DNA of 64,000 nt from Firmicutes bacterium FC7 (GTDB taxonomy: Bacteria; Bacillota; Clostridia; Tissierellales; Tissierellaceae): contig JAKELU010000009.1 in NCBI GenBank assembly GCA_022760735.1, positions 15,996 through 79,995 of the forward strand, read 5' to 3'. Each line of letters starts with the position of its first letter. The first letter of the stretch is position 1. The notes below the pieces were generated by a model. That model worked only from the letters and a program-made list of their open reading frames with translations. It searched no databases and had not been told where the DNA came from. A program made the translations under genes and the position numbers. Below are positions 42,998 through 63,884 of the stretch, in pieces.

Positions 42998-43894
42998 GTG
43001 GCTAAGATTATTCAATGTGTACCTAATTTCAGCGAAGGCAGAGATCAGGGAAAGTTAGATGAAATATTAAATGAAATCAGAAGCGTAGAAGGCGTTAAAT
43101 TATTAGATTATTCTATGGACAAGGACCATAATAGAAGTGTTGTAACTTTTATAGGTAGCCCTGAAGGAGTTGTTGAAGCTGCTTTTAAAGCAACTCAAAA
43201 AGCAGCTGAAGTTATAGATATGACTAATCATCAAGGTGAGCATCCTAGAATGGGAGCAACAGATGTAATACCTCTAATTCCAATATCAGATGTAACAATG
43301 GATGAATGTGTAGAGTTATCAAAAAAACTAGGAGCAAGAATCGGTAATGAATTGGGCATATCTGTATATTTGTATGAGAAATCAGCTAGTGCTCCACATA
43401 GAGAAAATCTTGCAGATGTAAGAAAAGGCCAATATGAAGGAATGAAGGAAAAACTAAAAATGGAAGGTTGGACTCCAGATTTTGGCCCTACTGAGTTAAA
43501 TGAAAAAGCAGGCGTAACAGCTGTTGGTGCAAGAATGCCATTAGTAGCTTATAATATTAATTTAGGTACGAATAACCTTGATATTGCTAAGAAAATTGCT
43601 AAAGCCATTAGAGCTAAAACTGGCGGATTTACCTACTGTAAAGCTTTAGGAATAGAGATAAAAGAAAGAGATATAGTACAAGTGTCAATAAATATGGTTG
43701 ATTATACAAAAACTCCATTATTTAGGGTTTTTGATACTGTAGAAAGAGAAGCAAGAAGATATGGGGTTAATGTCATAGGTAGTGAAATCATTGGATTAGT
43801 TCCAATGGAAGCTTTAGTAGATGTAGCAGATTATTATTTAAGATTAGAAGGATTTGATAAAAGCCAAATATTAGAAAAAAGAATGGCTGAATAG
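42998..43894 (+). CDS. ftcD: glutamate formimidoyltransferase
   Basis: A 298-residue enzyme, GTG start after TGGAGGAA. It moves the formimino group of N-formimino-L-glutamate to tetrahydrofolate, the last hut step. The start CVPNFSEGRD is the family signature, with HQGEHPRMGATDVIPL (about 78-93, catalytic His) and KAGVTAVGARMPLVAYNINL following. The transferase only: the cyclodeaminase half found in long FtcD proteins is missing, and no fchA is in the window. First gene of the sigma-54 operon. Confidence 0.96.
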   Translation: MAKIIQCVPNFSEGRDQGKLDEILNEIRSVEGVKLLDYSMDKDHNRSVVTFIGSPEGVVEAAFKATQKAAEVIDMTNHQGEHPRMGATDVIPLIPISDVTMDECVELSKKLGARIGNELGISVYLYEKSASAPHRENLADVRKGQYEGMKEKLKMEGWTPDFGPTELNEKAGVTAVGARMPLVAYNINLGTNNLDIAKKIAKAIRAKTGGFTYCKALGIEIKERDIVQVSINMVDYTKTPLFRVFDTVEREARRYGVNVIGSEIIGLVPMEALVDVADYYLRLEGFDKSQILEKRMAE

Positions 43895-45187: not shown

Positions 45188-47215
45188 ATGTGGAATAATA
45201 AAACAATTGGCGAGGCAATGCAAATTAAACTAGATAACTATCTGCCTCCATATCCAGAGTTTGAAAAAGGAATTAGAAGAGCACCAAAAAGAGAGTTTAC
45301 TCTATCAAAGAGAGAAACAGAATTGGCATTAAAGAATGCGCTAAGATATATACCAGAAGAATTGCATGAACAACTTGCACCTGAGTTTTTAGAAGAATTG
45401 CTAACTAGGGGAAGAATATATGGATATAGATTTAGACCACAAGGAAGAATCTATGGAAAACCAATTGATGAATATAAGGGAAAATGCATTGAAGGTAAAG
45501 CCTTCCAAGTAATGATAGATAATAACTTAGACTTTGATGTTGCACTTTATCCATATGAGTTAGTAACTTATGGTGAAACAGGTCAAGTATTCCAAAACTG
45601 GATGCAATATAGATTAACAATGAAGTATCTAGAGGAATTAACTGATGAGCAAACTCTTGTTATAGAATCAGGTCATCCATTAGGATTATTTAGATCTAGT
45701 AAGCAAAGTCCTAGAGTAATTATTACAAACGCTTTAATGGTAGGTATGTTCGATAATCAAGAACATTGGATAAAAGCTCAGGCTATGGGTGTTGCAAACT
45801 ATGGTCAGATGACAGCTGGTGGGTGGATGTATATAGGGCCTCAAGGTATTGTCCATGGAACATTTAATACAATTCTAAATGCAGGTAGAATGAAGCTTGG
45901 TATACCTGAAGACAAAGACCTTAAAGGACATATGTTTGTAAGTTCTGGTCTAGGTGGAATGAGTGGTGCACAAGGTAAGGCAGCTAAGATTGCAGGCGGT
46001 GTAGGTGTAATTGCTGAAGTAGATATTTCTAGAATTCATACAAGACTTGAACAGGGCTGGATAGATGAAGTATATGATGATTTAGAAAAATTGTTCGAAG
46101 CTGCTCAAAAGTATGTTGTTGAAGGAAAGGCAACAGCTTTAGCATATCATGGTAATATTATTGATTTATTAGAGTATGCAGTAGAAAAGAATATTCATAT
46201 AGAACTATTATCCGACCAAACATCATGCCATGCTGTATACGATGGCGGATACTGTCCTCAAGGTTTAACATTTGAAGAAAGAACAAAGATGCTATATGAA
46301 GATAAAGAAAGTTTCATGAAAGAAGTTGACAAATCATTAAAACGTCATTTTGAATTGATAAAAACACTTGTTGACAGAGGAACATATTTCTTTGACTATG
46401 GAAATAGCTTTATGAAAGCAGTGTTTGATGCTGGAGTAAAAGAAATTTCTAAGAATGGAATAGATGAGTCTGAAGGATTTATTTTCCCATCTTATGTAGA
46501 AGATATTATGGGACCAATGCTATTTGACTATGGTTATGGACCATTTAGATGGGTTTGCTTAAGTGGAAAACATGAAGACTTAATAAAAACTGACAGAGCT
46601 GCTATGGAATGTATAGATCCAAATAGAAGAGGACAAGACAGAGATAACTACAACTGGATAAGAGATGCTGAAAAAAATCAATTAGTAGTAGGTACTCAAG
46701 CAAGAATTCTATATCAAGATGCTTTAGGTAGAACTAAGATAGCACTTAAGTTTAACGAAATGGTTAGAAATGGTGAAGTAGGACCTATCATGTTAGGTAG
46801 AGATCATCATGACGTATCAGGTACAGACTCTCCATTTAGAGAAACTTCAAATATCAAAGATGGTAGTAATATAATGGCTGATATGGCTACTCAATGCTTT
46901 GCTGGTAATGCAGCAAGAGGAATGAGTTTAATAGCTTTACACAATGGTGGAGGAGTAGGCATAGGTAAGTCTATAAATGGTGGATTTGGTATGGTTCTTG
47001 ATGGCTCTGAAAGAGTAGACAATATATTAAAAACTGCGATGCCATGGGACGTTATGGGAGGAGTTGCTAGACGTGCATGGGCAAGAAATGATAATTCTAT
47101 AGAAACAGTAATAGAATATAATGAAATGTTCAAAGATACTGACCATATAACACTACCATATGTTGCGGATGATGAGCTTGTAAAGAGCTTAGTAGAAAAG
47201 CATTATAATAAATAA
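45188..47215 (+). CDS. hutU: urocanate hydratase
   Basis: A 675-residue NAD+-containing hydratase turning urocanate into imidazolonepropionate. QGRIYGYRFRPQGRIYGKPIDEY, ESGHPLGLF, MTAGGWMYIGPQGIVHGT, then GLGGMSGAQGKAAKIAGGVG (NAD site) are clear. The 675-residue form is longer than the 550-residue proteobacterial HutU and matches the clostridial/mammalian-type long class. As the only hydratase of this fold in the window, it might also act on thiourocanate. RBS AAGGAGGAA. Confidence 0.96.
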   Translation: MWNNKTIGEAMQIKLDNYLPPYPEFEKGIRRAPKREFTLSKRETELALKNALRYIPEELHEQLAPEFLEELLTRGRIYGYRFRPQGRIYGKPIDEYKGKCIEGKAFQVMIDNNLDFDVALYPYELVTYGETGQVFQNWMQYRLTMKYLEELTDEQTLVIESGHPLGLFRSSKQSPRVIITNALMVGMFDNQEHWIKAQAMGVANYGQMTAGGWMYIGPQGIVHGTFNTILNAGRMKLGIPEDKDLKGHMFVSSGLGGMSGAQGKAAKIAGGVGVIAEVDISRIHTRLEQGWIDEVYDDLEKLFEAAQKYVVEGKATALAYHGNIIDLLEYAVEKNIHIELLSDQTSCHAVYDGGYCPQGLTFEERTKMLYEDKESFMKEVDKSLKRHFELIKTLVDRGTYFFDYGNSFMKAVFDAGVKEISKNGIDESEGFIFPSYVEDIMGPMLFDYGYGPFRWVCLSGKHEDLIKTDRAAMECIDPNRRGQDRDNYNWIRDAEKNQLVVGTQARILYQDALGRTKIALKFNEMVRNGEVGPIMLGRDHHDVSGTDSPFRETSNIKDGSNIMADMATQCFAGNAARGMSLIALHNGGGVGIGKSINGGFGMVLDGSERVDNILKTAMPWDVMGGVARRAWARNDNSIETVIEYNEMFKDTDHITLPYVADDELVKSLVEKHYNK

Positions 47216-47228: not shown

Positions 47229-47259
47229 ATTGGATTGCAAGCAAAGCTTGCAATCCAAT
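47229..47259 (+). other. perfect intercistronic hairpin without T-run
   Basis: A 14-bp stem ATTGGATTGCAAGC (47229-47242) with its complement at 47246-47259 around AAA, followed by A residues. It may be an mRNA-stability or processing element between hutU and yjiH rather than a terminator. Confidence 0.7.
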
Positions 47260-48699: not shown

Positions 48700-48723
48700 G
48701 ATTTTATCATGGGGGAATCTATT

Positions 48724-51588
48724 ATGGTGGATGTATATATTAAATTTTTAGGTATACCTTCAATAACAATAAATAATAAGCTTGTTGAATTACCCTTTGC
48801 TAAGGCAGAAAGTGTAATATATGCTTTATTATATGATAAAGTTATTACACGAGAAGCTTTATGCACACTTTTATGGAATGATATGGATGAACAATCTTCT
48901 AAAAAGAATCTGAGGAATGCAATTTATATTATTAGAAAAAACACTTTTGACGATTTCATTATATCTCCTAAAAGGTCTCTACTTAAGATAAACAATAAAT
49001 ATAATGTAGTATCTGACATTGATATTTTAAATAGCTTCAATCCCTGTAATATTTTAAACGATGATATGGTAGAACAAATCTTGAACATTTATGATGGTTT
49101 CTTCTTAGAAGACTTGAAGTATAAATCTACTCCAGAATTTGAAGAATGGGTAGAGTTTAGAAGCGGGGAAATTAATGGTACATACATAAATAAATTAAAA
49201 ATAATGTGCAAAGAACTAATTGATAAAGAAAATGTAAGATTAGCAGAAAAATGTGCATTAAAATTAACTGAACTAGAAGAATATGATGAAACGGGCTATA
49301 TATTTTTAATGAAATCATACCTTATCCAAAAAAAATATGAAGAAGCAATAAATGTTTATAATAATTTAGTCAAAAAACTATACAATGACCTATCTGTAAA
49401 ACCTTCAAGAGAAACTGAGAGTATATACGAGGAAATTATAAAAAACATTAAGTTTAAAAAGGACAGTACTTCTCAAACATTTTGTAGTAGAGAAAACGAG
49501 AAAAAAGTAATTTATGATAATATATATAATTTTGTTGGAAATAAAAATTTTAAGTCTTTATTAATATGTGGGGAAGATGGAATTGGGAAAACACTTCTTC
49601 TTGATGAAATAAATAAGGAATTAGAATTAAATATACTTAAGCTTAATATCAATTGTTATGAATATGACAAGGATTTTATATTTAAATTTTGGGACAAGGT
49701 TTTCATTAAAATATCAAAATACTTAAGCAAACATAATATAAATATCCCTTATGGTCTAGTTGAAAGTATCAATAAATCATTTCCAACGCTAAATATTGAA
49801 TCAAATGAAGACATTGAAGGTTATTATATTCAAGCAAACTATAATATAACTGAAAAGGCAATATTTGACCTGTTTTCATTACTAACTAACAAGATAAAGA
49901 TAATTTTTATAATCGACAATATACATTTTGTTGATAAACCAAGCCTTCATTTGCTCTATAAGACTATCTTAGCAAACAGATACAAGATAATGTTAATTGC
50001 TACAAGTAGGTCTGAAAAAGAAGTTATAAATGATAAGTTCTATTTTTCTTTAAAATGTAATAATGCTGTTGAAAAAGTACACTTAAAAAGATTTAATAGG
50101 GATGAAACTAAGAAGTTTGTGGAATTAATAATGCCTGGGGTAACTTATGATTTAGATAAGATTTTTGTAGAAAGTGAAGGTAATCCTTTATTTATTGTAG
50201 AAATGGTAAATGCAATTAAAAGTGGAAATAAAGATTGCTATATGACTAATAAAATCGAAAACTTAATTGAAGCTAGACTAATGCATTTATCAGATCAGGC
50301 TATTAAGATTCTAAGTATTTGTTCATTATTTCATGGTGCCTTTAATGTCGAGATTCTATCAAATATTACAAATATGAATAGCATTGAATTAATTGATTTA
50401 ATTGACGAACTTTTATCTAAAGAGATTTTAAAAGAAGATTTAAATGATGAAAAAGTAGTTTTAAGATTTACCCATAGAAAAATTAGAGAATATATTTATG
50501 ATAAGATAAGTAATTCGAAACGTTTAATATTGCATGAAAAACTGGGTGAATATTATGAGAGCAAGTTAAATGATAATTTGAAAAATAATAGGACCTTATA
50601 TCCAGAAATAATTTATCATTATTCATGCTCAAATAATAAAATAAAACTCTTTAAATACAAAATTAGAAGATTAGAATACATATTAAATGCAAGACACGAA
50701 ATTTTCCCAGTTGCAGAAGTAAATGAAGCAGCTAATTTGTTTAAATCCTATATAGATGATAAAGCTTTAGAAGAAGAATTTCGTGCAATTAATAATCTTT
50801 ACAATGAAATAGCTTGTGGTAAAAAGGATTTAATAGAAGAAGTCATAATTTATCTATATTTATACGGAAGGTTCAACAAAGGTAGATGTAATAATTTAGA
50901 CGGATTAACAAGTCTAAATAAAATGATAAGGATATCTGAAGAGAATAAATACTATGAGTATGCTTTAAATGGTTATTTGCAGTTAATACATTATTACGTA
51001 AATAAAATGGACTTGCCTTCAATGATTAAAGCAATAAATAAGGCAGAAAATATAGCAAAAATTATAAATGATGAATGCAAATTAGCAATTATAATAAGAT
51101 TTAAAGGATACTATAATATTCTTTCTAGAAAATATGATGAAGGAGAAAATTATTTAAAAGATGCTATTAAGATATTTAGCACAGCAGGAAATAAGGAAAA
51201 ATACATACTAAATATTGTGGCGGCCCTATTTTATTTAGGAGAAAGCAAGAGATTCCAAGGATTGTATGAGGAAGCAATGGAATTTTATAATAATGCTATT
51301 GCTTTATGTGATGAAAATGAAGACTTTCCAGCCGCTGCCTTAATATTCTCAAAAATAGGATATGTCAAATACCAGCAGAATTTAGTAGAAGAAGCACAAT
51401 TCTATTTTCTTAAGTCGATTAAAGCATATGAAAAGAGTATATTTGCTTGGGGTAGAGCAGAGGTGTACTATTATCTTTATAAGATATATAAGGAAAAGAA
51501 TAATATGTCTAAGGCTATCATGTACTATGAACAAGCTAAAAGGTTTGTTGGAAAATATTCTAGTGAGGATATGAAGGTACTAGTCTAA
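48724..51588 (+). CDS. BTAD/AfsR-like regulator with ATPase and TPR domains
   Basis: A 954-residue protein; I start at ATG 48724, seven bases after GGGGGAA, not ATG 48709. Residues 1-95 are an OmpR-like winged helix (KAESVIYALLYDKVITREALCTLLW), about 100-250 the bacterial transcriptional activation domain (BTAD) with a TPR feel (YDETGYIFLMKSYLIQKKYEEAINVYNNLV), then a P-loop region with GEDGIGKTLLLDEI (about 292-305) and IIDNIHFVDKPS (Walker B/sensor), and a C-terminal TPR superhelix (LGESKRFQGLYEEAMEFYNNAI). This SARP/AfsR plan is best known in actinobacteria; here it sits between the two hut-related operons. I infer a second regulator for the Mo-hydroxylase/lyase operon. Confidence 0.85.
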   Translation: MVDVYIKFLGIPSITINNKLVELPFAKAESVIYALLYDKVITREALCTLLWNDMDEQSSKKNLRNAIYIIRKNTFDDFIISPKRSLLKINNKYNVVSDIDILNSFNPCNILNDDMVEQILNIYDGFFLEDLKYKSTPEFEEWVEFRSGEINGTYINKLKIMCKELIDKENVRLAEKCALKLTELEEYDETGYIFLMKSYLIQKKYEEAINVYNNLVKKLYNDLSVKPSRETESIYEEIIKNIKFKKDSTSQTFCSRENEKKVIYDNIYNFVGNKNFKSLLICGEDGIGKTLLLDEINKELELNILKLNINCYEYDKDFIFKFWDKVFIKISKYLSKHNINIPYGLVESINKSFPTLNIESNEDIEGYYIQANYNITEKAIFDLFSLLTNKIKIIFIIDNIHFVDKPSLHLLYKTILANRYKIMLIATSRSEKEVINDKFYFSLKCNNAVEKVHLKRFNRDETKKFVELIMPGVTYDLDKIFVESEGNPLFIVEMVNAIKSGNKDCYMTNKIENLIEARLMHLSDQAIKILSICSLFHGAFNVEILSNITNMNSIELIDLIDELLSKEILKEDLNDEKVVLRFTHRKIREYIYDKISNSKRLILHEKLGEYYESKLNDNLKNNRTLYPEIIYHYSCSNNKIKLFKYKIRRLEYILNARHEIFPVAEVNEAANLFKSYIDDKALEEEFRAINNLYNEIACGKKDLIEEVIIYLYLYGRFNKGRCNNLDGLTSLNKMIRISEENKYYEYALNGYLQLIHYYVNKMDLPSMIKAINKAENIAKIINDECKLAIIIRFKGYYNILSRKYDEGENYLKDAIKIFSTAGNKEKYILNIVAALFYLGESKRFQGLYEEAMEFYNNAIALCDENEDFPAAALIFSKIGYVKYQQNLVEEAQFYFLKSIKAYEKSIFAWGRAEVYYYLYKIYKEKNNMSKAIMYYEQAKRFVGKYSSEDMKVLV

Positions 51589-51663: not shown

Positions 51664-51709
51664 GACGCTATATATTATATTATAAATTTGTTAAATGATA
51701 TAAAATTAG

Positions 51710-51725
51710 TTGAATACGTTTACCC
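51710..51725 (-). promoter_or_regulatory. cre-like site before the Mo-hydroxylase operon
   Basis: On the minus strand GGGTAAACGTATTCAA; it shares TAAACGTATTCAA with the perfect cre at 60291 but has GG where WT is expected (two mismatches). It lies 14 nt before the small subunit start. Confidence 0.45.
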
Positions 51726-51738
51726 AGGGAGGTATTTA

Positions 51739-52212
51739 ATGTTTATTAATGTTATAGTTAATGGAGAAAAAATTAATATAGATATAAACCCTACTAAGAG
51801 GTTAGTAGATTTTCTAAGAGACGATCTAAATTTGACAGGAGTCAAGGAAGGATGCTCGGAAGGAGAATGTGGTGCTTGCACTGTTATCTTAGATAGAAAG
51901 GCTGTAGCATCTTGCTCAGTTCTAGTAGGACAAGTCAATGGTAAGGAGATAATAACTATAGAAGGATTAGAAAAGGACGGAGAATTAGATGCTTTACAAA
52001 GGGCTTTTATTGAAATAGGTGCTATTCAATGTGGCTTTTGTACACCAGGGATGATTCTTTCCTGTAAGGCACTGTTAATGAATAATCCATTTCCTACTGA
52101 GGATGAAATAAAAAGAGCAATAGAAGGAAATCTTTGCAGGTGTACAGGTTATACAAAAATAGTAGAAGCTGTACAAAGTGCGATTGAATGGGGGCATGGA
52201 AATGATGAATAG
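51739..52212 (+). CDS. Mo-hydroxylase small subunit, two [2Fe-2S] clusters (XdhC/CoxS type)
   Basis: A 157-residue protein from ATG 51739 with GGGAGG before it. It has all eight Cys: plant-type cluster C39, C44, C47, C59 (GCSEGECGACTV) and second cluster C98, C101, C133, C135 (CGFCTPGM and CRCTGY). It passes electrons from the molybdenum centre to FAD. First of three consecutive xanthine-dehydrogenase-family subunit genes. Confidence 0.95.
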   Translation: MFINVIVNGEKINIDINPTKRLVDFLRDDLNLTGVKEGCSEGECGACTVILDRKAVASCSVLVGQVNGKEIITIEGLEKDGELDALQRAFIEIGAIQCGFCTPGMILSCKALLMNNPFPTEDEIKRAIEGNLCRCTGYTKIVEAVQSAIEWGHGNDE

Positions 52213-53047
52213 TTTTATAGAACCAAAGAATATTGAACACTTATGTGATGCCCTAAATGAAAAAGATGAGAATACATATATCTTAGCAGGGGGTACGGAT
52301 TTAATTATTAAGTTTGCAAAGGAAAATATATCAAATTTTAAAATTATTGATATTAGCTCTTTTAGCAATTTCAGAAGTATAGAGGATTTAGGAGATGCAA
52401 TTAAAATTGGTTCATGCGTTACAATGACAGAGATTGAAAACAATAAATTAATTAAAAAAGAAATACCTGCACTAGCTACTGCTGCATATAATGTAGGTTC
52501 AACTCAAATTAGAAATAGGGCAACTATTGGGGGGAATCTTGCTAATGCAGCACAATGTGGTGATACAATACCAGTTCTTTTTGCTTACGATGCAGATATT
52601 GAGATATTAAATTCTTTAAATCAAGTAAGATATGAAAAAGCAAGAGATTTAGTAACAGGTATTGGGAAAACAACTTTGAAGAAAGATGAAGTAATAACTT
52701 CAATACTTATTAAAAAATCAAAATATTCATCTGGTTTTTCAAAAGTTGGCTCTAGAAAATCAGTAACCATATCAAAAATTAATTGTTGCGGAAAAATCCT
52801 TTTAGATGAAGACAATGTAATACGAGATATAGAAATATATATGGGAGCTGTGGGCGTAAAGCCTATCAAAGCTGAATTAATAGAAAAAGAGATACTTGGT
52901 AAAAGTCTTGAAATCTCTAGCTATAATCTAGAAGAATCAATAAAAGAGCAAATCGAAAGAGCTATTCCAAATAGAAGCTCCAAGCATTACAAAAAGATTG
53001 CAGCAATAGGACTAATTAAAGATATGCTTGCTGACATTAGGAGGTAG
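52202..53047 (+). CDS. Mo-hydroxylase medium subunit, FAD-binding (XdhB/CoxM type)
   Basis: About 281 residues; the start lies at ATG 52202 or 52205, overlapping the small-subunit end, with GGGGG upstream. FAD motifs: AGGTDLIIK (about 28-36) and the double TIGGNLANAAQCGDT. The [4Fe-4S]-carrying insert of 4-hydroxybenzoyl-CoA reductase is absent. It transfers electrons from the iron-sulfur clusters to NAD+ or a carrier through FAD. The large subunit follows 2 nt after the stop. Confidence 0.93.
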   Translation: MMNSFIEPKNIEHLCDALNEKDENTYILAGGTDLIIKFAKENISNFKIIDISSFSNFRSIEDLGDAIKIGSCVTMTEIENNKLIKKEIPALATAAYNVGSTQIRNRATIGGNLANAAQCGDTIPVLFAYDADIEILNSLNQVRYEKARDLVTGIGKTTLKKDEVITSILIKKSKYSSGFSKVGSRKSVTISKINCCGKILLDEDNVIRDIEIYMGAVGVKPIKAELIEKEILGKSLEISSYNLEESIKEQIERAIPNRSSKHYKKIAAIGLIKDMLADIRR

Positions 53048-53049
53048 TT

Positions 53050-55272
53050 ATGAAAGAATTGAGATATGTAGGACAAAGAATAATTCGTGAAGATTCTTAT
53101 GATAAGGCTAGAGGAAAAACCATTTATGTAGGTGACATGAAAAGGGCGAATATGCTATATGCTAAATTAGTCTTAGGCCAGAAAGCACATGCAGAAATAG
53201 AGATTGATAAAACGGAAGCAATGCTAGTTGATGGAATAGAAGCTATCTTTACACATGAGGATGTACCAAAAGTGCAATATAATGCATTTGAATGGCATTC
53301 CTCAATTAAGGCTCCAAGGGATGAATATTTATTAAATAATAAGGCTAGGTATGTAGGAGATAGAATAGCACTTGTAGTTGGTAAGAGCAAGAAAGCTGTA
53401 GAAGAGGCAATAGCAAAGCTTAGCATTGCATATAAGGAAGAAAAACCAGTAATAGGTTTAGATGAAGCGACTTCTTTAGCTTTCTCTAAGGAAATTAGTA
53501 CAGGGGATTATGAAAAAGCATTTGAAAATGCAGATTATATAATAAAAGATATAGGTACAACACCTAAAATACATCATGCAGCTATAGAGCCTCATGCGTG
53601 TTTAGCTGAGTTTGATGATAGAGGCAATTTACTTATATGGGCACCATGTCAAGTTGCATCACAAATTCAAATTCATGTTTCCAATATCTTAAATATTCCT
53701 TTAAATAGAGTAAGAGTTGTTAAGACTGTTATGGGAGGTTCGTTTGGAGGGAAAAGCATACCAATTTTAGAACCTATAGCGGCATTTGCAACCTATAGAC
53801 TAAATAGACCAGTTCTGCTTTATATGAATAGAACGGACACTATTTTAGGGACAGTAACAAGAAATGCAACTAAAATAACTGTTGAAACAGCAGTTAATAA
53901 GGAAGGTAAAATTTTAGGAAGAAAAATCGAAGCTCATGTTGATGGAGGTGCATATAATACAAATGCCGCTGCAGTAACAATGGCCTTAGGCAAAAAATTA
54001 TTTAGATTATATGACATTAAGGATCAGTGTTACATTGGGAAAGCATATTATACAAATACAATTCCAGGGGGAGCATGTAGAGGATATGGGTCACCACAAG
54101 CTCATGCTATAACTGAAGTTAATATTGATAATGTAGCGAAAACACTAAATATGGATCCATGTGAATTTAGATTGAAGAATTTAATTGAAGATGGAGCGAA
54201 GGACCCAACAGGAAGCACTGATATTGGGAATGCAAAAATAAAGGAATGCATCATAAAGGGCATGGAGGCATTTAACTGGAAAGAGAAAAGAAAGAATATT
54301 AGGAATAAAAATACAAACAGATATTCTTATGGTATTGGAATGGCATGTGGAACCCATGGAAATGGATATACTGGAGCCTATCCAGATTATACAAGTGTAG
54401 ATTTAAGACTGTTTTCAGATGGTAGTGTTTTAGTCAATATGAGTATCCATGATTTAGGGTGTGGTACACTGACAATTATGCAGCAGATTGCTGCTGAAGC
54501 ACTTGATATAGAGATAGAAAAAGTAAAAGTAACAGAAGCAGACACATTAAATACGCCAGCGGACTCGGCAGGGACACAGGCTAGTAGAGTTACTTATGTA
54601 TGTGGAGCAGCTGTTAAAGAAGCAGGAGAGAAGTTAAGACAAAAGTTAATAGATACTTTCTGCAAACTGAAAGGTATTAATCAAGATGATGTAATTACAT
54701 CACAAGGTTATATTTTCAATAAACAATCAAACCAAAAATATAGTTATTCAGAAATAGTTGTTGAGGCTGAAAAGACATTCCAAGAGGATATGAGCGTATT
54801 TATTAAATACAAATCCCCTGCAAATCCGGCATCCTTTGCAGCTTGTTTTGCAGAAGTAAAGGTTGACAAATATACTGGTTTAGTGGAAGTTATAGATTTT
54901 CTAGCTGTTCATGATATTGGTAAATCAATCAATCCAATGTTGGTAGAAGGACAAATTCAAGGTGGTGTTCAATTTAGCATTGGTATGGCATTGACTGAGG
55001 ATATTGATATTGATAGCAAAGGAAATGTAAAATCAACAAATTTTTCAAAATATCATATTTTAAATTCAACATCCATGCCGAAAGTAAGGACTATGACAAT
55101 AGAAGCAAATGAGCCTTATGGTCCATATGGAGCTAAAAGTGTTGGTGAAATGGCTACAGTAGCACCTGCACCAGCTATAATAAATGCAATTAATTTTGCC
55201 TTGGATACAAATATAACTACGTATCCTGCTACACCAGAGTTAATTATAAATGAACTTAATAAAAAGAGTTAA
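53050..55272 (+). CDS. Mo-hydroxylase large subunit, molybdopterin-binding (XdhA/CoxL type)
   Basis: A 740-residue catalytic subunit. Molybdopterin motifs GGSFGGK (229-235), PGGACRGYGSPQ (339-350, with Arg344) and PYGAKSVGE with the active-site Glu700. These residues fit a hydroxylase adding oxygen from water to a hetero-aromatic carbon or aldehyde. Its place between hut genes and ammonia-lyase homologues, and no purine-catabolic genes nearby, argue for an imidazole-type substrate rather than xanthine, but the sequence cannot settle this. modABC at 17150-19690 can supply molybdate. Confidence 0.93.
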   Translation: MKELRYVGQRIIREDSYDKARGKTIYVGDMKRANMLYAKLVLGQKAHAEIEIDKTEAMLVDGIEAIFTHEDVPKVQYNAFEWHSSIKAPRDEYLLNNKARYVGDRIALVVGKSKKAVEEAIAKLSIAYKEEKPVIGLDEATSLAFSKEISTGDYEKAFENADYIIKDIGTTPKIHHAAIEPHACLAEFDDRGNLLIWAPCQVASQIQIHVSNILNIPLNRVRVVKTVMGGSFGGKSIPILEPIAAFATYRLNRPVLLYMNRTDTILGTVTRNATKITVETAVNKEGKILGRKIEAHVDGGAYNTNAAAVTMALGKKLFRLYDIKDQCYIGKAYYTNTIPGGACRGYGSPQAHAITEVNIDNVAKTLNMDPCEFRLKNLIEDGAKDPTGSTDIGNAKIKECIIKGMEAFNWKEKRKNIRNKNTNRYSYGIGMACGTHGNGYTGAYPDYTSVDLRLFSDGSVLVNMSIHDLGCGTLTIMQQIAAEALDIEIEKVKVTEADTLNTPADSAGTQASRVTYVCGAAVKEAGEKLRQKLIDTFCKLKGINQDDVITSQGYIFNKQSNQKYSYSEIVVEAEKTFQEDMSVFIKYKSPANPASFAACFAEVKVDKYTGLVEVIDFLAVHDIGKSINPMLVEGQIQGGVQFSIGMALTEDIDIDSKGNVKSTNFSKYHILNSTSMPKVRTMTIEANEPYGPYGAKSVGEMATVAPAPAIINAINFALDTNITTYPATPELIINELNKKS

Positions 55273-55290: not shown

Positions 55291-56802
55291 ATGGAAACAT
55301 TAATTTTGAATGGCAAGAGCCTCACATTAGAGGATATCTATGGGGTCGTTTATAAAAATAGACCCGTGGAAGTGGAAAAAGAAGCCGTTGAAAGGGTTGC
55401 GCATGCTCGTCAAATACTATTTGATTTAGCAGCAAAAGGAGAGCCCGTATATGGCCTAAACAGAGGAGTTGGATGGAATAAGGACAAAGAATTTGATCAA
55501 GACTTTTTTGAGCAGTATAACAAAAACTTACTTAATAGTCATAGTTTGGGTGTTGAACCTTATCACACAGATGAAGAAGTAAGAGCAATACTACTTTTTA
55601 GACTTAATCATGCCTTAGCGGGTTCAACAGGCATCTCAGTCGAAATAATGAATCTATATAAGGAATTCCTAAATAGAGGTATTTATCCTAGAATACCTAG
55701 ACGTGGCTCAATAGGAGAAGCTGATATAACAACTTTATCTCTTATTGGACAATGCTTTATAGGTGAATGGGAAGTAACTTACAAAGGTAAAGTAATGTCA
55801 TCATTAGAAGCATTAAAGTTAGAAGGTTTAGAACCGGCTATTTTGGGACCAAAGGATGGATTAAGTATAGTATCTTCAAATGCACAGGGAGAGGCCTTGA
55901 CTTACATATTAATAAAGGAAATAGAAGACTTGGTTTCTATTACAAATTTAATATATTGTTTAAGTCTTGAGGGATTAAATGGTGTTGTTCAATCATTGGA
56001 CGAAAAAGTTAACAAATTAAGAGGTCTAAAAGGTCAAATAAAAAGTGCTAAACAATGTCGTGAATTTTTAGAAGGAAGTTATCTAAATAAACCTCATAAG
56101 GATAGAGCATTACAGGATCCATTAAGCTTTAGAGGTGCACATACTATAACTGGAACTGTATTAGATGCTTTAGAATTTGTTAAGTCCATATTCTTAATAC
56201 AAATTAATTCAACAGACGATAATCCATGTATTGTCTATGATGAAGATAGAACTTCTGTAAGTTCTAATTTTGAAACAACAACATTAGCAGTTGGGGTAGA
56301 AATGTTAGCTAATGCTCTAAATCACATATCAAAGACTTCCTGTTATAGGTTGATTAAATTAGCAGATCCAGCATTTACAAAGCTATCTAGATTCTTGACA
56401 CCATGTGATGTAAAGACTATAGCATATTGTGCTATACAAAAAACATTCTCTTATCTTGATGCAGAAAATAGAATGCTTGCTAACCCTTCATCTATGGATT
56501 TCTTCCCACTAGCGGGAGATATTGAGGATCATGCTAGCAACTTGCCTCTAGCTGCAGACAAGGTACTTAAGATAATAGACAATATTAGATATATTTTAGG
56601 AATTGAACTAATCCATGCTACTCAAGCGATTGATTTGAGGGGAGATATTGAATTGGGGAGAATTACTAAGATTGCTTATGAGGAGTTTAGAAAAGTTATT
56701 CCATTCTACGATAGAGATAGAAACATAACTATTGATATTCAGAAGGCTTATGAGTTTATAAAATCAAATGTTTTAATTAATATTTTCAATGAGATGCAAT
56801 AA
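55291..56802 (+). CDS. HAL-like lyase homologue 1, MIO triad replaced by Glu-Ala-Asp
   Basis: A 503-residue protein of the histidine/phenylalanine ammonia-lyase fold. Where HutH has GSLG-ASG-DLAPLAH, it reads GSIG-EAD-ITTLSLIG (Glu143-Ala144-Asp145), checked at 55714-55725; Ala-Ser-Gly is needed to make the MIO cofactor, so this protein cannot form it. Other active-site regions: YGLNRGVGW (Tyr kept), SHS (His kept), QDPLSFRG (Tyr of QDxY is Leu; Arg kept), VSSNAQ in place of INGTQ, and GDIEDHAS. An intact reading frame and operon position make decay unlikely. MIO-less relatives include ergothionase. Confidence 0.9.
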   Translation: METLILNGKSLTLEDIYGVVYKNRPVEVEKEAVERVAHARQILFDLAAKGEPVYGLNRGVGWNKDKEFDQDFFEQYNKNLLNSHSLGVEPYHTDEEVRAILLFRLNHALAGSTGISVEIMNLYKEFLNRGIYPRIPRRGSIGEADITTLSLIGQCFIGEWEVTYKGKVMSSLEALKLEGLEPAILGPKDGLSIVSSNAQGEALTYILIKEIEDLVSITNLIYCLSLEGLNGVVQSLDEKVNKLRGLKGQIKSAKQCREFLEGSYLNKPHKDRALQDPLSFRGAHTITGTVLDALEFVKSIFLIQINSTDDNPCIVYDEDRTSVSSNFETTTLAVGVEMLANALNHISKTSCYRLIKLADPAFTKLSRFLTPCDVKTIAYCAIQKTFSYLDAENRMLANPSSMDFFPLAGDIEDHASNLPLAADKVLKIIDNIRYILGIELIHATQAIDLRGDIELGRITKIAYEEFRKVIPFYDRDRNITIDIQKAYEFIKSNVLINIFNEMQ

Positions 56803-56855: not shown

Positions 56856-56880
56856 AATATAAAAATAAGGAGTGAAAAGT

Positions 56881-58437
56881 ATGGAATCAAAAATCAAAGA
56901 AAAGAAACACTTACGTATGGGTGTATTCTTACCAGCAGTAATATTTATAGGAGCAGCAGCTTTATTAGGAATTATCAGTAACAAAGCGCTAGCTGATACA
57001 GCCTGGGCATTCTTTCATTGGTCCCTAGAATCATTTGGATGGCTATATCAAATCGCTAGTATTGTTGGACTTGTAGTTGTATTTATTATTATGTTTTCTA
57101 AATTAGGTAATATTCGAATTGGTGGTAAGGATGCAAAACCTAAGTACAGTATGGGTACATGGTTTGCAATGACATTAACAGGTGGAGTAGCAACTGGTAT
57201 AGTAACATGGGGAGTAAATGAGCCACTTATTTATTTTGGTAATGTTTGGGGAGAACTAAATGGTTTAGGAATCGAAGCGTTTTCAAATGAAGCATTAAGA
57301 TTTGCATTAGGGAGAAGCTTTTATAACTGGACCTTTATCCCATATGCAATGTATGCTTTAACTGGATTAGCAACAGCATATGTTTATTATAATAAGAAAG
57401 ATAGATTAGCAGTAACATCTACATTAAAGCCATTGTTTGGTGAAAGAATTGCTAATGGCATATGGGCAGATATAGTTGATACATTATCAATGCTAGCCAT
57501 AGCATTAGGACTAACATCTGGTTTAACTATGTGTATTACTCTAGTTACTAGTGGATTACACTATTCATACGGAATAGAGAAGACATTCCCACTATTTTTA
57601 GTAGTTGGTATTATGATTATCTTTTTCTATACTTTTTCTTCATACATAGGATTAGATAAAGGAATGAAAAAAATAGCAAGTCTGAATGCATATTTTTATT
57701 ATGGATTACTTATATTGTTGATAATAGTAGGACAAAAATTATTTATGGTTAGAACAGCTACAGCTGGTATGGCAGAATGGCTCGATAACTTCTGGCTATG
57801 GGGATTAGATCCAATAGATATAGGAGGGGCTCCATTAACTCAATCATGGACATTATTTGACTGGGCTTGTTGGATAGCATATGCACCAGTTACAGGAATA
57901 TTCTTAGCAATGATTTCACATGGTAGAACTATTAGAGAATTCTTATTAGTAAACTTAATTCTTCCATCTGTATTTGGTATAGTTTGGTTTACAGTATGGG
58001 GGGGTTCAGCTTTAGGTATGCAAGTAGCTGGAACTGCTGATTTAGTAGGAACTATAGTAAATAATGATGCTATTTCTGCATTATGGCAGTTTATTGAAAG
58101 CCTACCATTTGGTCTTGGAACTATTGTTGTACCTTTGAACCTATTTATTATAGTGGTTTCTTTCGTAACATGTGCAGATGCAACTTCAACTGATATAGCA
58201 TCAATGTGTCTAAAAGACGTTCCAATTGGAACTGAACCTCCAGCTACTTTGAAAGTTCTATGGGGTGGACTAATAGGAATTATTGCTATAATAATGGCTG
58301 CTTTTGGTGGACAAGAACAAGGTGTTGAAGGAGTTAAGGCATTAGCAACTGCAGGAGGTTTTGTTGTACTATTTATTTACGTATTGCAGATAATATCTGT
58401 AATTAAGATGTTCTTTGTAGATAAGATTGAAGAATAA
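56881..58437 (+). CDS. BCCT-family betaine/carnitine/choline-type transporter
   Basis: A 518-residue, twelve-helix carrier; start ATG 56881 after AAGGAGTG. TGIVTWGVNEPLIYFGN and the Trp-rich segment WTLFDWACWIAYAPVTGIFLA with SHGRTIREF are standard for BCCT proteins, which take up substrates with a quaternary ammonium group. It lies between the two MIO-less lyase homologues, which fits a histidine betaine (ergothioneine, hercynine) as substrate; sequence alone does not tell. Confidence 0.92.
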   Translation: MESKIKEKKHLRMGVFLPAVIFIGAAALLGIISNKALADTAWAFFHWSLESFGWLYQIASIVGLVVVFIIMFSKLGNIRIGGKDAKPKYSMGTWFAMTLTGGVATGIVTWGVNEPLIYFGNVWGELNGLGIEAFSNEALRFALGRSFYNWTFIPYAMYALTGLATAYVYYNKKDRLAVTSTLKPLFGERIANGIWADIVDTLSMLAIALGLTSGLTMCITLVTSGLHYSYGIEKTFPLFLVVGIMIIFFYTFSSYIGLDKGMKKIASLNAYFYYGLLILLIIVGQKLFMVRTATAGMAEWLDNFWLWGLDPIDIGGAPLTQSWTLFDWACWIAYAPVTGIFLAMISHGRTIREFLLVNLILPSVFGIVWFTVWGGSALGMQVAGTADLVGTIVNNDAISALWQFIESLPFGLGTIVVPLNLFIIVVSFVTCADATSTDIASMCLKDVPIGTEPPATLKVLWGGLIGIIAIIMAAFGGQEQGVEGVKALATAGGFVVLFIYVLQIISVIKMFFVDKIEE

Positions 58438-58510: not shown

Positions 58511-60052
58511 ATGTTAACATCAAAAGGAGAAAATTATACTATCATAGGTGATAAATTAACTATAGAATCCTTTATGGAAATAGTACGAGGAAAAAGTAAG
58601 ATTAAATTTAATGATAAATATAAATCAAGAGTGTTAGAAGCTAGACAGATGGTAGAAAAATGGGTCAATGAAGGAAGAATTATGTATGGGGTTACAACTG
58701 GATTTGGTGCTAATAGCACAAGGACAATATCAAGTGAAGAAGCCAACAAACTTCAGAGAAATATAATTATATCTCACTCAACTTCTGTGGGAAAACCAAT
58801 GACTGAAGAAGAAGTACGTGCTACCATGTTAATGATTCTTCAAAATGCTGGTTCCGGCTATAGTGGTATAAGATTAAATACATTGGAAAGATACAGAGAT
58901 TTCTTGAATTTAAATTTAGTACCTTATGCTCCTAAGGAAGGTTCTGTTGGCTATCTTTCTCCTGAAGCTCATATAGCTTTAGCAATTATGGGCGAAGGAA
59001 AAATGATCTTAGATGGAAAAGTAACAGATTCTAATCAAGTGCTAAAAAAATATAATATTGAAAATTATGAACTGTCCTATAAAGAAGGCCTAATTTTAGT
59101 TTCTGGAACTACTAGTGTTACAGGAATGGCTGCAATAGCTCTATATGATATAATAAAAGCTGTTAAAACTGCAGATATAATTGGTGCTATGACTTTAGAA
59201 GTTTCAAGGGGTACATTAAGAGCTTATGATGAAAGATTAATGAGCGTAAGAGGTCACAAAGAACAAAAGGAATCAGCAAATAATATAAGAAAAATTCTTG
59301 ATGATTCTGAAATAGCTAAAGCAAATTATAACTACAGATTGCAAGATGCCTTATCAGTTAGATGTATTCCACAATTACATGGTGCGGTTAAGAAAACTCT
59401 TTATGATGCCTTAGAGACATTAGAAATTGAAATGAATAGCTGTACAGATAACCCAATTATTTGGGGTGAAAATGGCGATGGCGAGGCTATTTCAGGAGGA
59501 AATCCTGATTCTTCTTTTATAGGTTTAGAAATGGATTCAGTAGCAATGGCAGCTACAATGGTAGCTAAGATGTCAGAAAGAAGAAACAATCGTTTGATAG
59601 ATGGAAATTTATCAGAAAATCCTTGGTTTCTCGTAAATAATCCAGGATTGAATTCAGGGTTAATGATACCACAATATACTCAAGCTGGACTCTTAAATGA
59701 TATGAAAATGTTATCTACTTCAGCTGTAATTGACAACATCCCTACTTGTGGTAATCAAGAGGACTATGTAGCTATGGGATATAATTCATCAAAAAAAGCA
59801 ATAGCAGTTGCAGAAAAACTAGAGTATATTTTAGCAATTGAGCTACTATCAGCATATCAATCCTACCAGTATATTGATAAGAATCTAAAGAGAAGCACAG
59901 TAACAGATGCAATTTACAATGAAATTTCTAAAACTGTACCAATTATGGGCGAAGATATATATTTATATCCTCATATTGAAAGATTAAGAGAATTAATACA
60001 CAATGGAACTATTTTAAAAATTGCAGAAGATTTTGCTGGGAAAATATATTAA
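58511..60052 (+). CDS. HAL-like lyase homologue 2, MIO triad lost and loop shortened
   Basis: A 513-residue member of the same fold. After GSVG it reads YLS-PEAHIALAIMGEG (Tyr148-Leu149-Ser150), three residues shorter than HutH's ASGDLAPLAH stretch, so no MIO can form; checked at 58940-58975. Much else is HutH-like: YGVTTGFGANS, ISHS, SGTTSVTG for INGTQ, QDALSVRCIPQLHG (Tyr of QDxY is Leu; Arg kept), CTDNPIIW, SGGNPD, and GNQEDYVAMG. This pattern of strong conservation without MIO is the best candidate in the window for an ergothionase-type trimethylamine lyase. Confidence 0.92.
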   Translation: MLTSKGENYTIIGDKLTIESFMEIVRGKSKIKFNDKYKSRVLEARQMVEKWVNEGRIMYGVTTGFGANSTRTISSEEANKLQRNIIISHSTSVGKPMTEEEVRATMLMILQNAGSGYSGIRLNTLERYRDFLNLNLVPYAPKEGSVGYLSPEAHIALAIMGEGKMILDGKVTDSNQVLKKYNIENYELSYKEGLILVSGTTSVTGMAAIALYDIIKAVKTADIIGAMTLEVSRGTLRAYDERLMSVRGHKEQKESANNIRKILDDSEIAKANYNYRLQDALSVRCIPQLHGAVKKTLYDALETLEIEMNSCTDNPIIWGENGDGEAISGGNPDSSFIGLEMDSVAMAATMVAKMSERRNNRLIDGNLSENPWFLVNNPGLNSGLMIPQYTQAGLLNDMKMLSTSAVIDNIPTCGNQEDYVAMGYNSSKKAIAVAEKLEYILAIELLSAYQSYQYIDKNLKRSTVTDAIYNEISKTVPIMGEDIYLYPHIERLRELIHNGTILKIAEDFAGKIY

Positions 60053-60426: not shown

Positions 60427-61764
60427 ATGTTAACAAATCCAGTTTTGATTGCAGTAGTAGTAATGTCAGCACTTTGTTTGTTAAAGGTAAACGTTCTTAT
60501 TTCTATTCTTATTTCAGCATTAGTTGGCGGTGCTATGGCAGGAATGAGTTTAGGAGAGACAATGTCAACACTAATTGGAGGTATGGGTGGTTCAGCTGAA
60601 ACTGCGCTATCATATATTCTATTAGGTGCCTTAGCAGTTGCAATTGGGCACACTGGAGTAGCAGACATTTTAGTTCGAAAAATAGGTAAGGCTATTGAAA
60701 ATAAGAAGACAGTGTTTGTTCTATTAATAGCAGGTATTTCATGTTTTTCCCAGAACTTAATACCAGTTCATATCGCATTCATTCCAATTTTAATTCCACC
60801 ACTTCTAGCATTAATGAACAAACTTAAAATTGACAGAAGAGCAGTAGCATGTGCACTTACATTTGGATTAAAAGCTCCTTATGTAATGCTTCCTGTAGGA
60901 TTTGGATTAATATTCCATGGTATAGTAGCATCAGCTTTAACTGATAATGGTGTAGCTATGAACCAAATGGATGTTTGGAAAGCAACATTGTTACCAGGAA
61001 TAGGTATGATAATAGGTTTATTTGTTGCAGTATTTGTGTTATTTAGAAAACCAAGAGAATATAAGGATATAGATATTGCTCATAAAGAAAATGAAGTTTC
61101 AGGTGGCGGAAGTAACTCTGAATCAGCAGCTGTTTCATCTACAACTATGACTAAGGAACATTGGGGAGCTTTAGTTGGCGCTATTGCTGCCTTTGTAGTT
61201 CAGTTATGGCAAGGCTCATTACCACTTGGAGCACTTGTAGGTCTTATTATAATGATGGCATTTGGAAGCTTTAAATTAAAACAACTTGACGACATGATGA
61301 GTGGCGGTATTGGATTAATGGGATTCATAGCATTTGTTATGTTAGTAGCTTCAGGATTTGGTGCTGTACTTAGAGCTACAGGAGGAGTTGAGGCCCTAGT
61401 TGAAGCGTCAGTTAATTTAATGCGTGGAAGTAAATTAATTGCAGCTTTTGTAATGCTTCTAATAGGATTATTGGTAACAATGGGAATTGGTACATCATTT
61501 GGTACAGTTCCAATAATTGCAACAATTTTCGTTCCACTTGGAGTAGAAATAGGATTTAGTCCATTAGCAATTGCAAGCTTAGTTGCAGTAGCAGGTGCAT
61601 TGGGAGATGCAGGTTCACCAGCATCAGACTCAACACTTGGACCTACATCAGGACTTAATGCTGATGGTCAACATGACCATATTTGGGACACTTGTGTACC
61701 TACTTTTATAGCGTATAATATACCACTAATTATATTTGGTACAATAGCAGCAATAATATTATAA
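60427..61764 (+). CDS. YuiF-like Na+/H+ antiporter-family permease, probable histidine uptake
   Basis: A 445-residue, about twelve-helix protein. The N-terminal part (NPVLIAVVVMSALCLLKVNVLISILISA) matches the Na_H_antiport_2 leader, and the C-terminal GDAGSPASDSTLGPTSGLNADGQHDHIWDTC motif is typical of the YuiF amino-acid permease group. Relatives are found beside hut genes and carry histidine. It is followed by hutH after 110 nt containing a long hairpin. Confidence 0.85.
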   Translation: MLTNPVLIAVVVMSALCLLKVNVLISILISALVGGAMAGMSLGETMSTLIGGMGGSAETALSYILLGALAVAIGHTGVADILVRKIGKAIENKKTVFVLLIAGISCFSQNLIPVHIAFIPILIPPLLALMNKLKIDRRAVACALTFGLKAPYVMLPVGFGLIFHGIVASALTDNGVAMNQMDVWKATLLPGIGMIIGLFVAVFVLFRKPREYKDIDIAHKENEVSGGGSNSESAAVSSTTMTKEHWGALVGAIAAFVVQLWQGSLPLGALVGLIIMMAFGSFKLKQLDDMMSGGIGLMGFIAFVMLVASGFGAVLRATGGVEALVEASVNLMRGSKLIAAFVMLLIGLLVTMGIGTSFGTVPIIATIFVPLGVEIGFSPLAIASLVAVAGALGDAGSPASDSTLGPTSGLNADGQHDHIWDTCVPTFIAYNIPLIIFGTIAAIIL

Positions 61765-61874: not shown

Positions 61875-63404
61875 ATGGATCATATTTTTATTGACGGAAA
61901 TAGTTTAACTTTAGAAAAGTTTATAGATGTAACAAGAAATTTCAAGAAGGTAGAATTAACTACTGAAGCAATTGAGAAAGTAAATAAGGCGAGAGCCCTT
62001 GTAGATAGATATGTTGACGAAAATAAAGTTGTTTATGGTTTAACTACAGGCTTTGGTAAATTTAGTGATGTAGTTATAAGTGGAGAGCAAACTAAAACCT
62101 TACAAAGAAATTTAATAATTAGCCATTCTTGTGGCGTTGGAAATCCACTAGATGAAGAAATCGTAAGGGGTATCATGCTTTTAAGAGCAAATGCATTGGC
62201 AAAGGGATATTCTGGAGTTAGATTATCTACTCTAAATACTTTAATAGAAATGTTAAACAAAGGTGTTCATCCAATAGTACCAGAGAAAGGATCATTAGGT
62301 GCTAGTGGCGACCTTGCGCCTCTTGCTCATATGGTTCTAGTAATGATCGGTGAAGGTGAAGCAATTTATAAAGGAGAAAGAATGCCTGGCAAAGAAGCTA
62401 TGGCGAAAGCTGGGATAGAACCTGTGGAATTAACTTCAAAAGAAGGATTAGCATTAATTAATGGTACTCAAGTAATGACTTCGGTTGGTGCGCATACTGT
62501 ATATGACGCAATTAATTTAAGCAAAACAGCAGATATTGCCGCATCATTGACTTCAGAAGCATTAAATGGAATAACTGATGCTTACGATGAAAAAGTTCAT
62601 CTAGTAAGAGGACAAGAAGGGCAAATAAATACTGCAAAGAACCTTTTAAATATTCTTGAAGGTAGCCAAAATACTACAAGGCAAGGTGAGTTAAGAGTAC
62701 AGGATGCATATGCTCTAAGATGTGTACCTCAAATTCATGGAGCCTCTAAGGACTGCTTCAAATACGTTAAAGAAAAGGTTGAAATTGAATTAAACGCTGC
62801 GACTGACAACCCTTTAATTTTTGTAGATGAAGAACAAGTAATATCAGGTGGAAACTTCCATGGACAGCCTATGGCACTGCCATTTGATTTCTTAGGAATA
62901 GGACTATCTGAACTTGCTAATATTTCAGAGAGAAGATTAGAGAGATTAGTTAACCCGGCATTAAGCAATGGATTACCAGCATTTTTAACAGAAAATGGTG
63001 GAGTTAATTCAGGTTATATGATAGTACAGTATGCTGCAGCAGCATTAGTATCAGAAAATAAAGTTTTAGCTCATCCAGCAAGTGTTGACTCTATACCTTC
63101 ATCAGCAAATCAAGAGGACCATGTTTCCATGGGAACAATTGCTGCTAGAAAGGCAAGAGAAATATTAGCTAATGCTAGAAAGGTTATAGCTATGGAAATC
63201 ATGGCAGCATGCCAAGCTATTGATATAAGAGGAAACAAGGGCTTAGGAGCTGGCTCCGAAGAAGCTTATAAGATAGTTAGAGAAAAGGTTTCAAAAGTTG
63301 ATGATGACAGAATTATGTATTTAGACATAAATACTTGTGAAGATATAGTTAAATCAAATATAATAGTTGAAAAGGTAGAAGAAAAAGTAGGTACTTTATT
63401 ATAA
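61875..63404 (+). CDS. hutH: histidine ammonia-lyase
   Basis: A 509-residue enzyme making urocanate and ammonia from L-histidine. The MIO triad is intact: GSLG-ASG-DLAPLAH (Ala143-Ser144-Gly145, at 62301-62309). Also YGLTTGFGKF, SHSCGVG, INGTQ, QDAYALRCVPQIHG, GGNFHGQP and NQEDHVSMG, all canonical. RBS TTGGAGGAG. It is the only lyase of the three that should carry MIO; with hutU, hutI and ftcD it completes the route to glutamate. Confidence 0.97.
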   Translation: MDHIFIDGNSLTLEKFIDVTRNFKKVELTTEAIEKVNKARALVDRYVDENKVVYGLTTGFGKFSDVVISGEQTKTLQRNLIISHSCGVGNPLDEEIVRGIMLLRANALAKGYSGVRLSTLNTLIEMLNKGVHPIVPEKGSLGASGDLAPLAHMVLVMIGEGEAIYKGERMPGKEAMAKAGIEPVELTSKEGLALINGTQVMTSVGAHTVYDAINLSKTADIAASLTSEALNGITDAYDEKVHLVRGQEGQINTAKNLLNILEGSQNTTRQGELRVQDAYALRCVPQIHGASKDCFKYVKEKVEIELNAATDNPLIFVDEEQVISGGNFHGQPMALPFDFLGIGLSELANISERRLERLVNPALSNGLPAFLTENGGVNSGYMIVQYAAAALVSENKVLAHPASVDSIPSSANQEDHVSMGTIAARKAREILANARKVIAMEIMAACQAIDIRGNKGLGAGSEEAYKIVREKVSKVDDDRIMYLDINTCEDIVKSNIIVEKVEEKVGTLL

Positions 63405-63443
63405 AGATGAAACTGCAATTAGTCATCTATGCTAAAAAAATTG

Positions 63444-63465
63444 GGGATATCCTTATGGATATCCC
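63444..63465. terminator. bidirectional terminator between hutH and osmC-type gene
   Basis: The stem GGGATATCC / GGATATCCC with loop TTAT; on the minus strand a run of seven T follows, on the plus strand TATTCTTCTATT. Confidence 0.8.
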
Positions 63466-63884
63466 TATTCTTCTATTATGATCTCATATGTAATAGGTGC
63501 AGCCTTTGCTAACATTGCAGAGACACCACAATATTTTTCTTGTGATAGCTCAACAGCACGTTTAATCTTATCTTTTGGTAGATTTTTACCTTTAAATTTG
63601 TAAATCATTTTAATATATTTATATACTTTTGGGTCATTTTCTGTAGTGTCGGCTTCTACCTCAATACTAACATCTTCAAATTCAACTTGCATTTTTTTAG
63701 TAATAAGCATTACATCAATACCTGTACATCCGATTAGGCCAGCCAATAACAAAGTTTTTGGCCTATACCCTAAATCTTGTCCACCGATTTCAGGTGCTCC
63801 ATCTGTAATTAATTTGTGTCCATTTAGATTCATTTCAAATGCCATATTTCCAATTAGTTTTCCATTTAATTTAGTTATGCTCAT
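63465..63884 (-). CDS. OsmC-family protein
   Basis: A 139-residue protein of the OsmC/Ohr fold. It has two Cys: LIGCTGIDVMLITKK (about Cys54) and SQEKYCGVSAML (about Cys120), the classic redox pair of this family, which reduces organic peroxides or handles reactive sulfur. GGGGGATTGAAAAATG supplies the ribosome site. It is convergent with hutH; a link to sulfur released from thio-imidazoles is possible but only a neighbour-based guess. Confidence 0.9.
   Translation of the reverse strand: MSITKLNGKLIGNMAFEMNLNGHKLITDGAPEIGGQDLGYRPKTLLLAGLIGCTGIDVMLITKKMQVEFEDVSIEVEADTTENDPKVYKYIKMIYKFKGKNLPKDKIKRAVELSQEKYCGVSAMLAKAAPITYEIIIEE

Follow-up and report, generated by a model that had tools for sequence, protein, structure and literature searches.

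Histidine ammonia-lyase (HAL) uses MIO to activate ammonia, a poor leaving group; trimethylamine leaves readily from a quaternary centre. The solved ergothionase of Treponema denticola reportedly has four essential residues and works by acid/base catalysis. In the available excerpt of PMC13405746, ergothionase is described as making trimethylamine and thiourocanic acid and as lacking MIO, and a thiourocanate desulfhydrase that releases hydrogen sulfide is credited to Feng et al. 2025. The excerpt of PMC12771579, citing Feng 2025, describes a gut xanthine-oxidase homologue that, during the breakdown of ergothioneine, cleaves an aromatic C-S bond by reduction. As far as these excerpts of citing papers portray the gut bacterial pathway of Feng et al. 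2025, the window (the whole 64,000-nucleotide stretch of DNA analyzed here) has the same arrangement, with a gene for a predicted ergothionase (55291–56802) beside those for a xanthine-oxidase-family enzyme (51688–55272). The features of the locus, with the basis for each assignment in brackets, are:

42998–43894, + strand, glutamate formimidoyltransferase (model score over cut-off)
43910–45172, + strand, imidazolonepropionase HutI (model score over cut-off)
45188–47215, + strand, urocanate hydratase HutU (hutU model 442.8 bits, cut-off 375; thiourocanate hydratase model 304 bits, cut-off 930)
48709–51588, + strand, BTAD/TPR regulator upstream of the molybdoenzyme genes (family profile match; neighborhood)
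51688–52212, + strand, xanthine-oxidase-family [2Fe-2S] subunit, candidate thiourocanate desulfhydrase (Pfam/NCBIfam; neighborhood)
52178–53047, + strand, xanthine-oxidase-family FAD subunit (Pfam/NCBIfam; neighborhood)
53050–55272, + strand, xanthine-oxidase-family molybdopterin subunit, best solved relative 4-hydroxybenzoyl-CoA reductase (Pfam/NCBIfam; PDB search; co-occurrence)
55291–56802, + strand, predicted ergothionase (ergothioneine trimethylamine-lyase), HAL fold family without MIO, 503 residues (open reading frame; PDB 6s7j, 746.7 bits; 21-row clade with T. denticola ergothionase, 100/99)
55450–55452, + strand, Tyr54 (HAL Tyr53), kept in 71 of 71 alignment rows (alignment)
55717–55725, + strand, Glu143-Ala144-Asp145 codons, shortened former MIO segment with the MIO Ser deleted and Asp145 ancestral (alignment)
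56440–56442, + strand, Lys384, in 32 of 33 ergothionase-type proteins and 0 of 18 HALs (alignment)
56524–56526, + strand, Glu412 (HAL Glu414), invariant in 33 ergothionase-type proteins and 18 HALs (alignment)
56872–58437, + strand, BCCT-family (betaine/carnitine/choline) transporter, candidate ergothioneine importer, with a likelier start at the in-frame ATG at 56881 (PF02028, 372.6 bits; co-occurrence)
58511–60052, + strand, HAL paralogue with the MIO loop deleted (GSVG-Y-LSPEAH), candidate second trimethylamine-lyase (PDB search; alignment)
60427–61764, + strand, Na+/H+ antiporter-family transporter between the MIO-less paralogue and HutH (family profile match)
61875–63404, + strand, ordinary histidine ammonia-lyase HutH with Ala-Ser-Gly (profile match; alignment)

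The frame of 55291–56802, which the earlier note had called intact, is open for 503 residues from an ATG at 55291, preceded by an AGGAG-type ribosome site, to a stop at 56802. A search of PDB chain sequences with its product returned T. denticola ergothionase (6s7j, also 6s7q) as the top match, at 746.7 bits over residues 3–498, with a HAL as runner-up at 239 bits; the title of entry 6s7j is 'Native crystal structure of ergothioneine degrading enzyme Ergothionase from Treponema denticola'. The window protein and this enzyme match over their full length, with 332 of 496 aligned residues identical (67%), compared to identities of 28% with Pseudomonas putida HAL and 32% with HutH of the same window, and the score on the HutH model (345.9 bits) falls below its cut-off of 539.15. 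A maximum-likelihood tree was computed for 71 HAL-fold proteins with the MIO columns removed. In it, all 33 ergothionase-type rows group together (100/100), and a group of 21 rows at 100/99 unites the window protein with T. denticola ergothionase. From its sequence, we consider it very probable that the 55291–56802 protein is an ergothionase that splits trimethylamine from the dietary antioxidant ergothioneine, encoded in a cluster with a candidate molybdoenzyme desulfhydrase and the Hut route that appears suited to feeding on ergothioneine. The enzyme had been taken as unexplained, but a solved and named ergothionase that is 67% identical carries the same kind of segment (SSIG-EGD-ITTL); the unusual 'histidine lyase' is well explained by a known enzyme type rather than a new one. 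It adds one more member to an established family, within a pathway of an established kind, and the result is useful as annotation.

The stretch GSIG-EAD-ITTLSLIG is present at residues 139–153 (GSIG at 139–142, then Glu143, Ala144, and Asp145), VSSNAQ stands where HAL has INGTQ, and Tyr54 (in YGLN), His84 (in SHS), and Arg281 (in QDPLSFR), which align with Tyr53, His83, and Arg283 of P. putida HAL, are kept, all as previously read. The description of Glu-Ala-Asp as standing in place of Ala-Ser-Gly holds in one respect, as the 71-protein alignment places neither an Ala-Ser-Gly nor a Ser-Ser-Gly triad in this protein, and fails in another, as the exchange is not one-for-one: the register downstream is ungapped, HAL G-A-S-G-D-L aligns with G-E-(gap)-A-D-I, and the segment is one residue shorter than that of HAL, with the MIO serine absent. 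Glu143 thereby occupies the position of HAL Ala142, and Asp145 corresponds to HAL Asp145, the ordinary Asp after Ala-Ser-Gly, which is invariant in the HALs and in all 33 ergothionase-type proteins. Three states of the segment occur in the alignment. The first comprises 18 HALs (15 ASGD, 3 SSGD) and two aminomutases (one ASGD, one TSGD); the second, the ergothionase type, comprises 33 proteins (16 E-GD, 12 E-AD, 2 Q-AD, 1 Q-GD, 1 M-AD, 1 A-AD), every one of which lacks the MIO serine and keeps the Asp; and the third, MIO-less type comprises 18 proteins in which a Tyr is followed by a gap of three missing residues. GSIG-EAD also occurs in a second genome of the genus, in a protein 93% identical to the window protein, and 33 of the 71 aligned proteins share the shorter segment ending in Asp; chance or sequencing error is therefore excluded as the source of Glu-Ala-Asp.

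Residues around the former MIO site changed as well. HAL Asn195 is Ser in 32 of the 33 ergothionase-type proteins (Ala in one) and HAL Tyr280 is Leu in all 33, with the window protein carrying Ser and Leu; the Phe at 280 in the P. putida row is not natural, because that row is entry 1gkj, by its title a Y280F mutant. Twenty alignment columns are conserved in ergothionases but not in HAL, with the window protein among the 33 rows. Asn63, Lys64, Asn417, and His442 occur in 33 of 33 ergothionase-type proteins and Asn197, His345, Arg367, and Lys384 in 32 of 33. All eight are absent from the 18 HALs; Asn63 also occurs in 14 of the 18 third-type proteins. A residue-by-residue check found all eight markers in the window protein and in T. 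denticola ergothionase alike. These two proteins thus share the Lys/Asn/His/Arg marker set and the Ser/Leu pair at HAL positions 195/280; they differ in that T. denticola has Gly (GEGD) where the window protein has Ala144 (GEAD), and the host of the window protein encodes the urocanate pathway in the same window. Compared to HutH from P. putida or from the window, the predicted ergothionase shares PF00221 and equivalents of Tyr53, His83, Asp145, Gln277, Arg283, and Glu414, whereas it is only 28–32% identical, lacks the MIO serine, and has Asn195 replaced by Ser and Tyr280 by Leu.

The neighborhood was compared across loci. One genome from each of 84,980 species was scanned with a sequence pattern, a method sensitive to close relatives alone, and this gave 19 ergothionase loci at 62–75% identity; adding nine more produced a set of 28, which was compared to 18 control loci around ordinary HALs, with neighbors matched by tblastn at E 1e-10 up to 10 kb on each side. 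A molybdoenzyme large-subunit match lay near 27 of the 28 ergothionase loci and none of the 18 HAL loci, and a BCCT gene near 26 of 28 versus 0 of 18, although these counts are not independent because the loci are related to one another. L035 has no molybdoenzyme match within the examined stretch; L018, on a short contig, has no BCCT gene; and L034, a 39% identical ergothionase type, has two short pieces of the large subunit and no BCCT gene. The large subunit is only 28–33% identical to that of the window in seven loci (L013, L014, L015, L019, L020, L022, and L037), and thus the partner molybdoenzyme is not one tight family. In the window, the best solved match of this subunit (242.9 bits) is 4-hydroxybenzoyl-CoA reductase, a reductive member of the xanthine-oxidase family. 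Some of the other ergothionase loci also contain a relative of the BTAD/TPR regulator. Of the 199 genomes surveyed from the order of the window, a set that is not a gut sample, 13 have a full-length ergothionase relative at identities of at least 49%, a count that omits one 39% relative and one fragment.

Several smaller observations concern these loci. The L034 protein (9596–11071) is an ergothionase type with Met-Ala-Asp, is altered at HAL Gln277 and Arg283, and is encoded next to the large-subunit pieces; it perhaps has another substrate or is decaying. A DcuC/YfcC-type carrier gene lies within three ergothionase clusters (L010 8503–9921, L021 8594–9979, and L016 13101–14510) and possibly moves a pathway compound. 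Terminator-like stem-loops at 47229–47259 (14 pairs) and 63442–63467 (11 pairs) bracket the stretch of the window from a Gate-domain transporter gene to hutH, an arrangement resembling that of a single transcription unit. A promoter scan gave 85 sites, compared to 89 expected by shuffling, and carried no usable signal.

Three other readings of the 55291–56802 protein were weighed against an ergothionase. The earlier note had proposed that Glu143 and Asp145 form an acidic pair serving as a base or metal ligand. In one alignment, Glu143 is invariant across the 18 closer ergothionases, which speaks for a new acidic site that does the chemistry, but Asp145 is the ordinary HAL Asp, and Glu143 gives way to Gln in three (L037, L040, and L065), Met in one (L034), and Ala in one (L064) of the 33 ergothionase-type proteins, leaving Glu in 28, in exchanges known from sequence alone. 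On this alignment the acidic site was rejected, and we regard it as highly improbable. Loss of the MIO serine might also mark a decayed, inactive HAL copy; with an open frame, family residues conserved in 33 proteins, and a conserved neighborhood, we give this pseudogene reading almost no weight and consider it ruled out by conservation. The suggestion of a MIO-free elimination fares better, as the triad is missing, so that MIO cannot form, and the protein belongs to the ergothionase family; this membership likewise predicts that the reaction is not the deamination of histidine, and the suggested separation of its role from that of lyase homologue 2 is supported. With these results the puzzle closes: a MIO-less HAL-fold lyase that keeps the other active-site residues is accounted for by a better leaving group, not by a new acidic catalyst.

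A nearer alternative is that the enzyme is a MIO-free trimethylamine-lyase of the ergothionase family whose main substrate is a compound close to ergothioneine, for example hercynine or ergothioneine sulfonate. One reference cited in the excerpt of PMC13405746 has a title that names a bacterial ergothioneine sulfonate pathway. Proteobacterial relatives, including a Sinorhizobium meliloti protein 41% identical to that of the window, have other neighbors: in Polaromonas a gene of the YeiH family, which we take to be a sulfate/sulfite exporter family, lies directly upstream, and in Paracoccus there is a hut cluster, with a gene annotated as a putative sulfate exporter ~7.6 kb upstream. However, the window protein shares a clade with T. 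denticola ergothionase, and the adjoining molybdoenzyme belongs to a family reported to cleave a C-S bond (PMC12771579, in excerpt), and we consider a related main substrate unlikely here. The proteobacterial ergothionase-type genes themselves (L064 8980–10599, L065 8938–10578, and L069 7917–9605) differ in their neighbors, which are a YeiH-family gene, LysR regulators with ABC transporter genes, and a hut cluster, and at the position of Glu143 two of the three encode Ala or Gln. Plasmid-borne relatives in Sinorhizobium carry the annotation histidine ammonia-lyase; because of such labels, production of trimethylamine and sulfide from ergothioneine is easily missed in annotation.

For the ergothionase reading, we propose that ergothioneine, the trimethylammonium betaine of 2-thiohistidine, would be imported by the adjacent BCCT carrier, that the 55291–56802 enzyme would eliminate trimethylamine to leave thiourocanate, that the upstream xanthine-oxidase-family enzyme would remove sulfur reductively to give urocanate and sulfide, and that HutU, HutI, and the formimidoyltransferase of the window would carry urocanate to glutamate; the likely overall flow is thus from ergothioneine through thiourocanate and urocanate to glutamate. 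An ergothionase does not require the electrophilic MIO because trimethylamine is already a good leaving group, and therefore the loss of MIO together with the changes of Asn195 to Ser and Tyr280 to Leu fits a trimethylamine-lyase, in which the acid/base groups are probably Lys384, typical of ergothionases, and the conserved pair Tyr54 and Glu412. Our own analysis shows the family membership, the missing MIO serine, the residue conservation, and the neighborhood; ergothionase chemistry and C-S cleavage by the gut xanthine-oxidase homologue are taken from the literature. By family and neighborhood, the 51688–55272 molybdoenzyme is a candidate for the reported thiourocanate desulfhydrase, likened to the enzyme of Feng 2025 by its description in the citing papers. 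The genome has two PF02738 molybdopterin-binding matches, one of them the 53050–55272 gene, and one match to the molybdopterin-synthesis domain Mob_synth_C (PF06463). Two other routes for thiourocanate were rejected. The sole urocanase-family match in the genome scores as HutU and, at 304 bits, far below the thiourocanate hydratase cut-off of 930, which speaks against a hydratase route and fits desulfuration. According to the excerpt of PMC9516567, the metallopterin ergothioneine synthase of Caldithrix has acetylene hydratase and DMSO reductase as its relatives. It does not belong with the xanthine-oxidase family of the window enzyme, and sulfur removal by a Caldithrix-like enzyme was set aside.

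The remaining novelty lies not in the predicted ergothionase but in the adjacent paralogue at 58511–60052, the second of three HAL-fold genes in the window. Its product matches HALs best in the PDB search (305.6 bits to 7tqr versus 163.3 to ergothionase) and lacks three residues of the MIO loop, a deletion different from that of ergothionase. As in ergothionase, the 18 third-type proteins mostly have Ser at HAL position 195 (14 of 18) and Leu at 280 (15 of 18), and three members retain HAL Asn195 and Tyr280. The third type is found in 10 of the 199 genomes of the order (matches of at least 44% identity, with the motif checked; weaker matches, at 41% or below, were checked in part, and those checked were HALs). 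Seven of these ten are among the 13 genomes with ergothionase (Fisher p 9e-8 over 199 genomes, with kinship ignored), and a third-type gene lies within the examined stretch of 5 of the 28 ergothionase loci. Among ten third-type loci without ergothionase, six have a BCCT gene nearby (L027, L028, L030, L031, L033, and L039) and four do not (L029, L032, L066, and L089); in L066 a sodium:solute symporter gene lies upstream. On the Klebsiella pneumoniae plasmid pKp3b (L089 9863–11395), a GSVG-Y-L relative directly follows a gene for an OpuAC glycine-betaine-type binding protein and sits in a hut cluster with no other lyase listed, in an incomplete gene table and the one plasmid region examined.

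Tentatively, and with somewhat more doubt than confidence, we suggest that the 58511–60052 protein belongs to a second MIO-less HAL-fold line whose members would act on a histidine betaine, hercynine for instance, releasing trimethylamine and yielding urocanate directly. This reading is supported by the Ser195/Leu280 pattern, the BCCT genes in six of ten loci, the OpuAC/hut setting on pKp3b, and the overlap of seven in ten genomes, and is weakened by the four loci without BCCT and the three members that keep Asn195 and Tyr280. If it is true, ergothionase, molybdoenzyme, and paralogue together would give the bacterium access to thiolated as well as unthiolated histidine betaines. In open-licence PMC papers, we found no description of a third-type MIO-less enzyme or a hercynine-degrading lyase. 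A structure model of the paralogue (pLDDT 64, from five sequences) places HALs at the top (TM 0.75–0.77), with aminomutases and ammonia-lyases alongside and ergothionase at rank 15 (0.73), and so does not discriminate. In the full tree the ergothionase and third-type rows join with support of 95/84 (bootstrap/SH-aLRT), and in a quick tree without L005, L009, L034, and L070 they join with an SH-aLRT of 77.8; the two alternatives have p-AU values of 0.23 and 0.20, and the AU tests favor neither one loss of MIO nor two. MIO-less HAL-type genes also occur as tandem pairs in L031 (9157–12294) and L032 (2174–5339), where one gene of each pair keeps HAL Asn195, Tyr280, and Phe329 and the other does not, and in L032 a molybdoenzyme set lies beside the pair.
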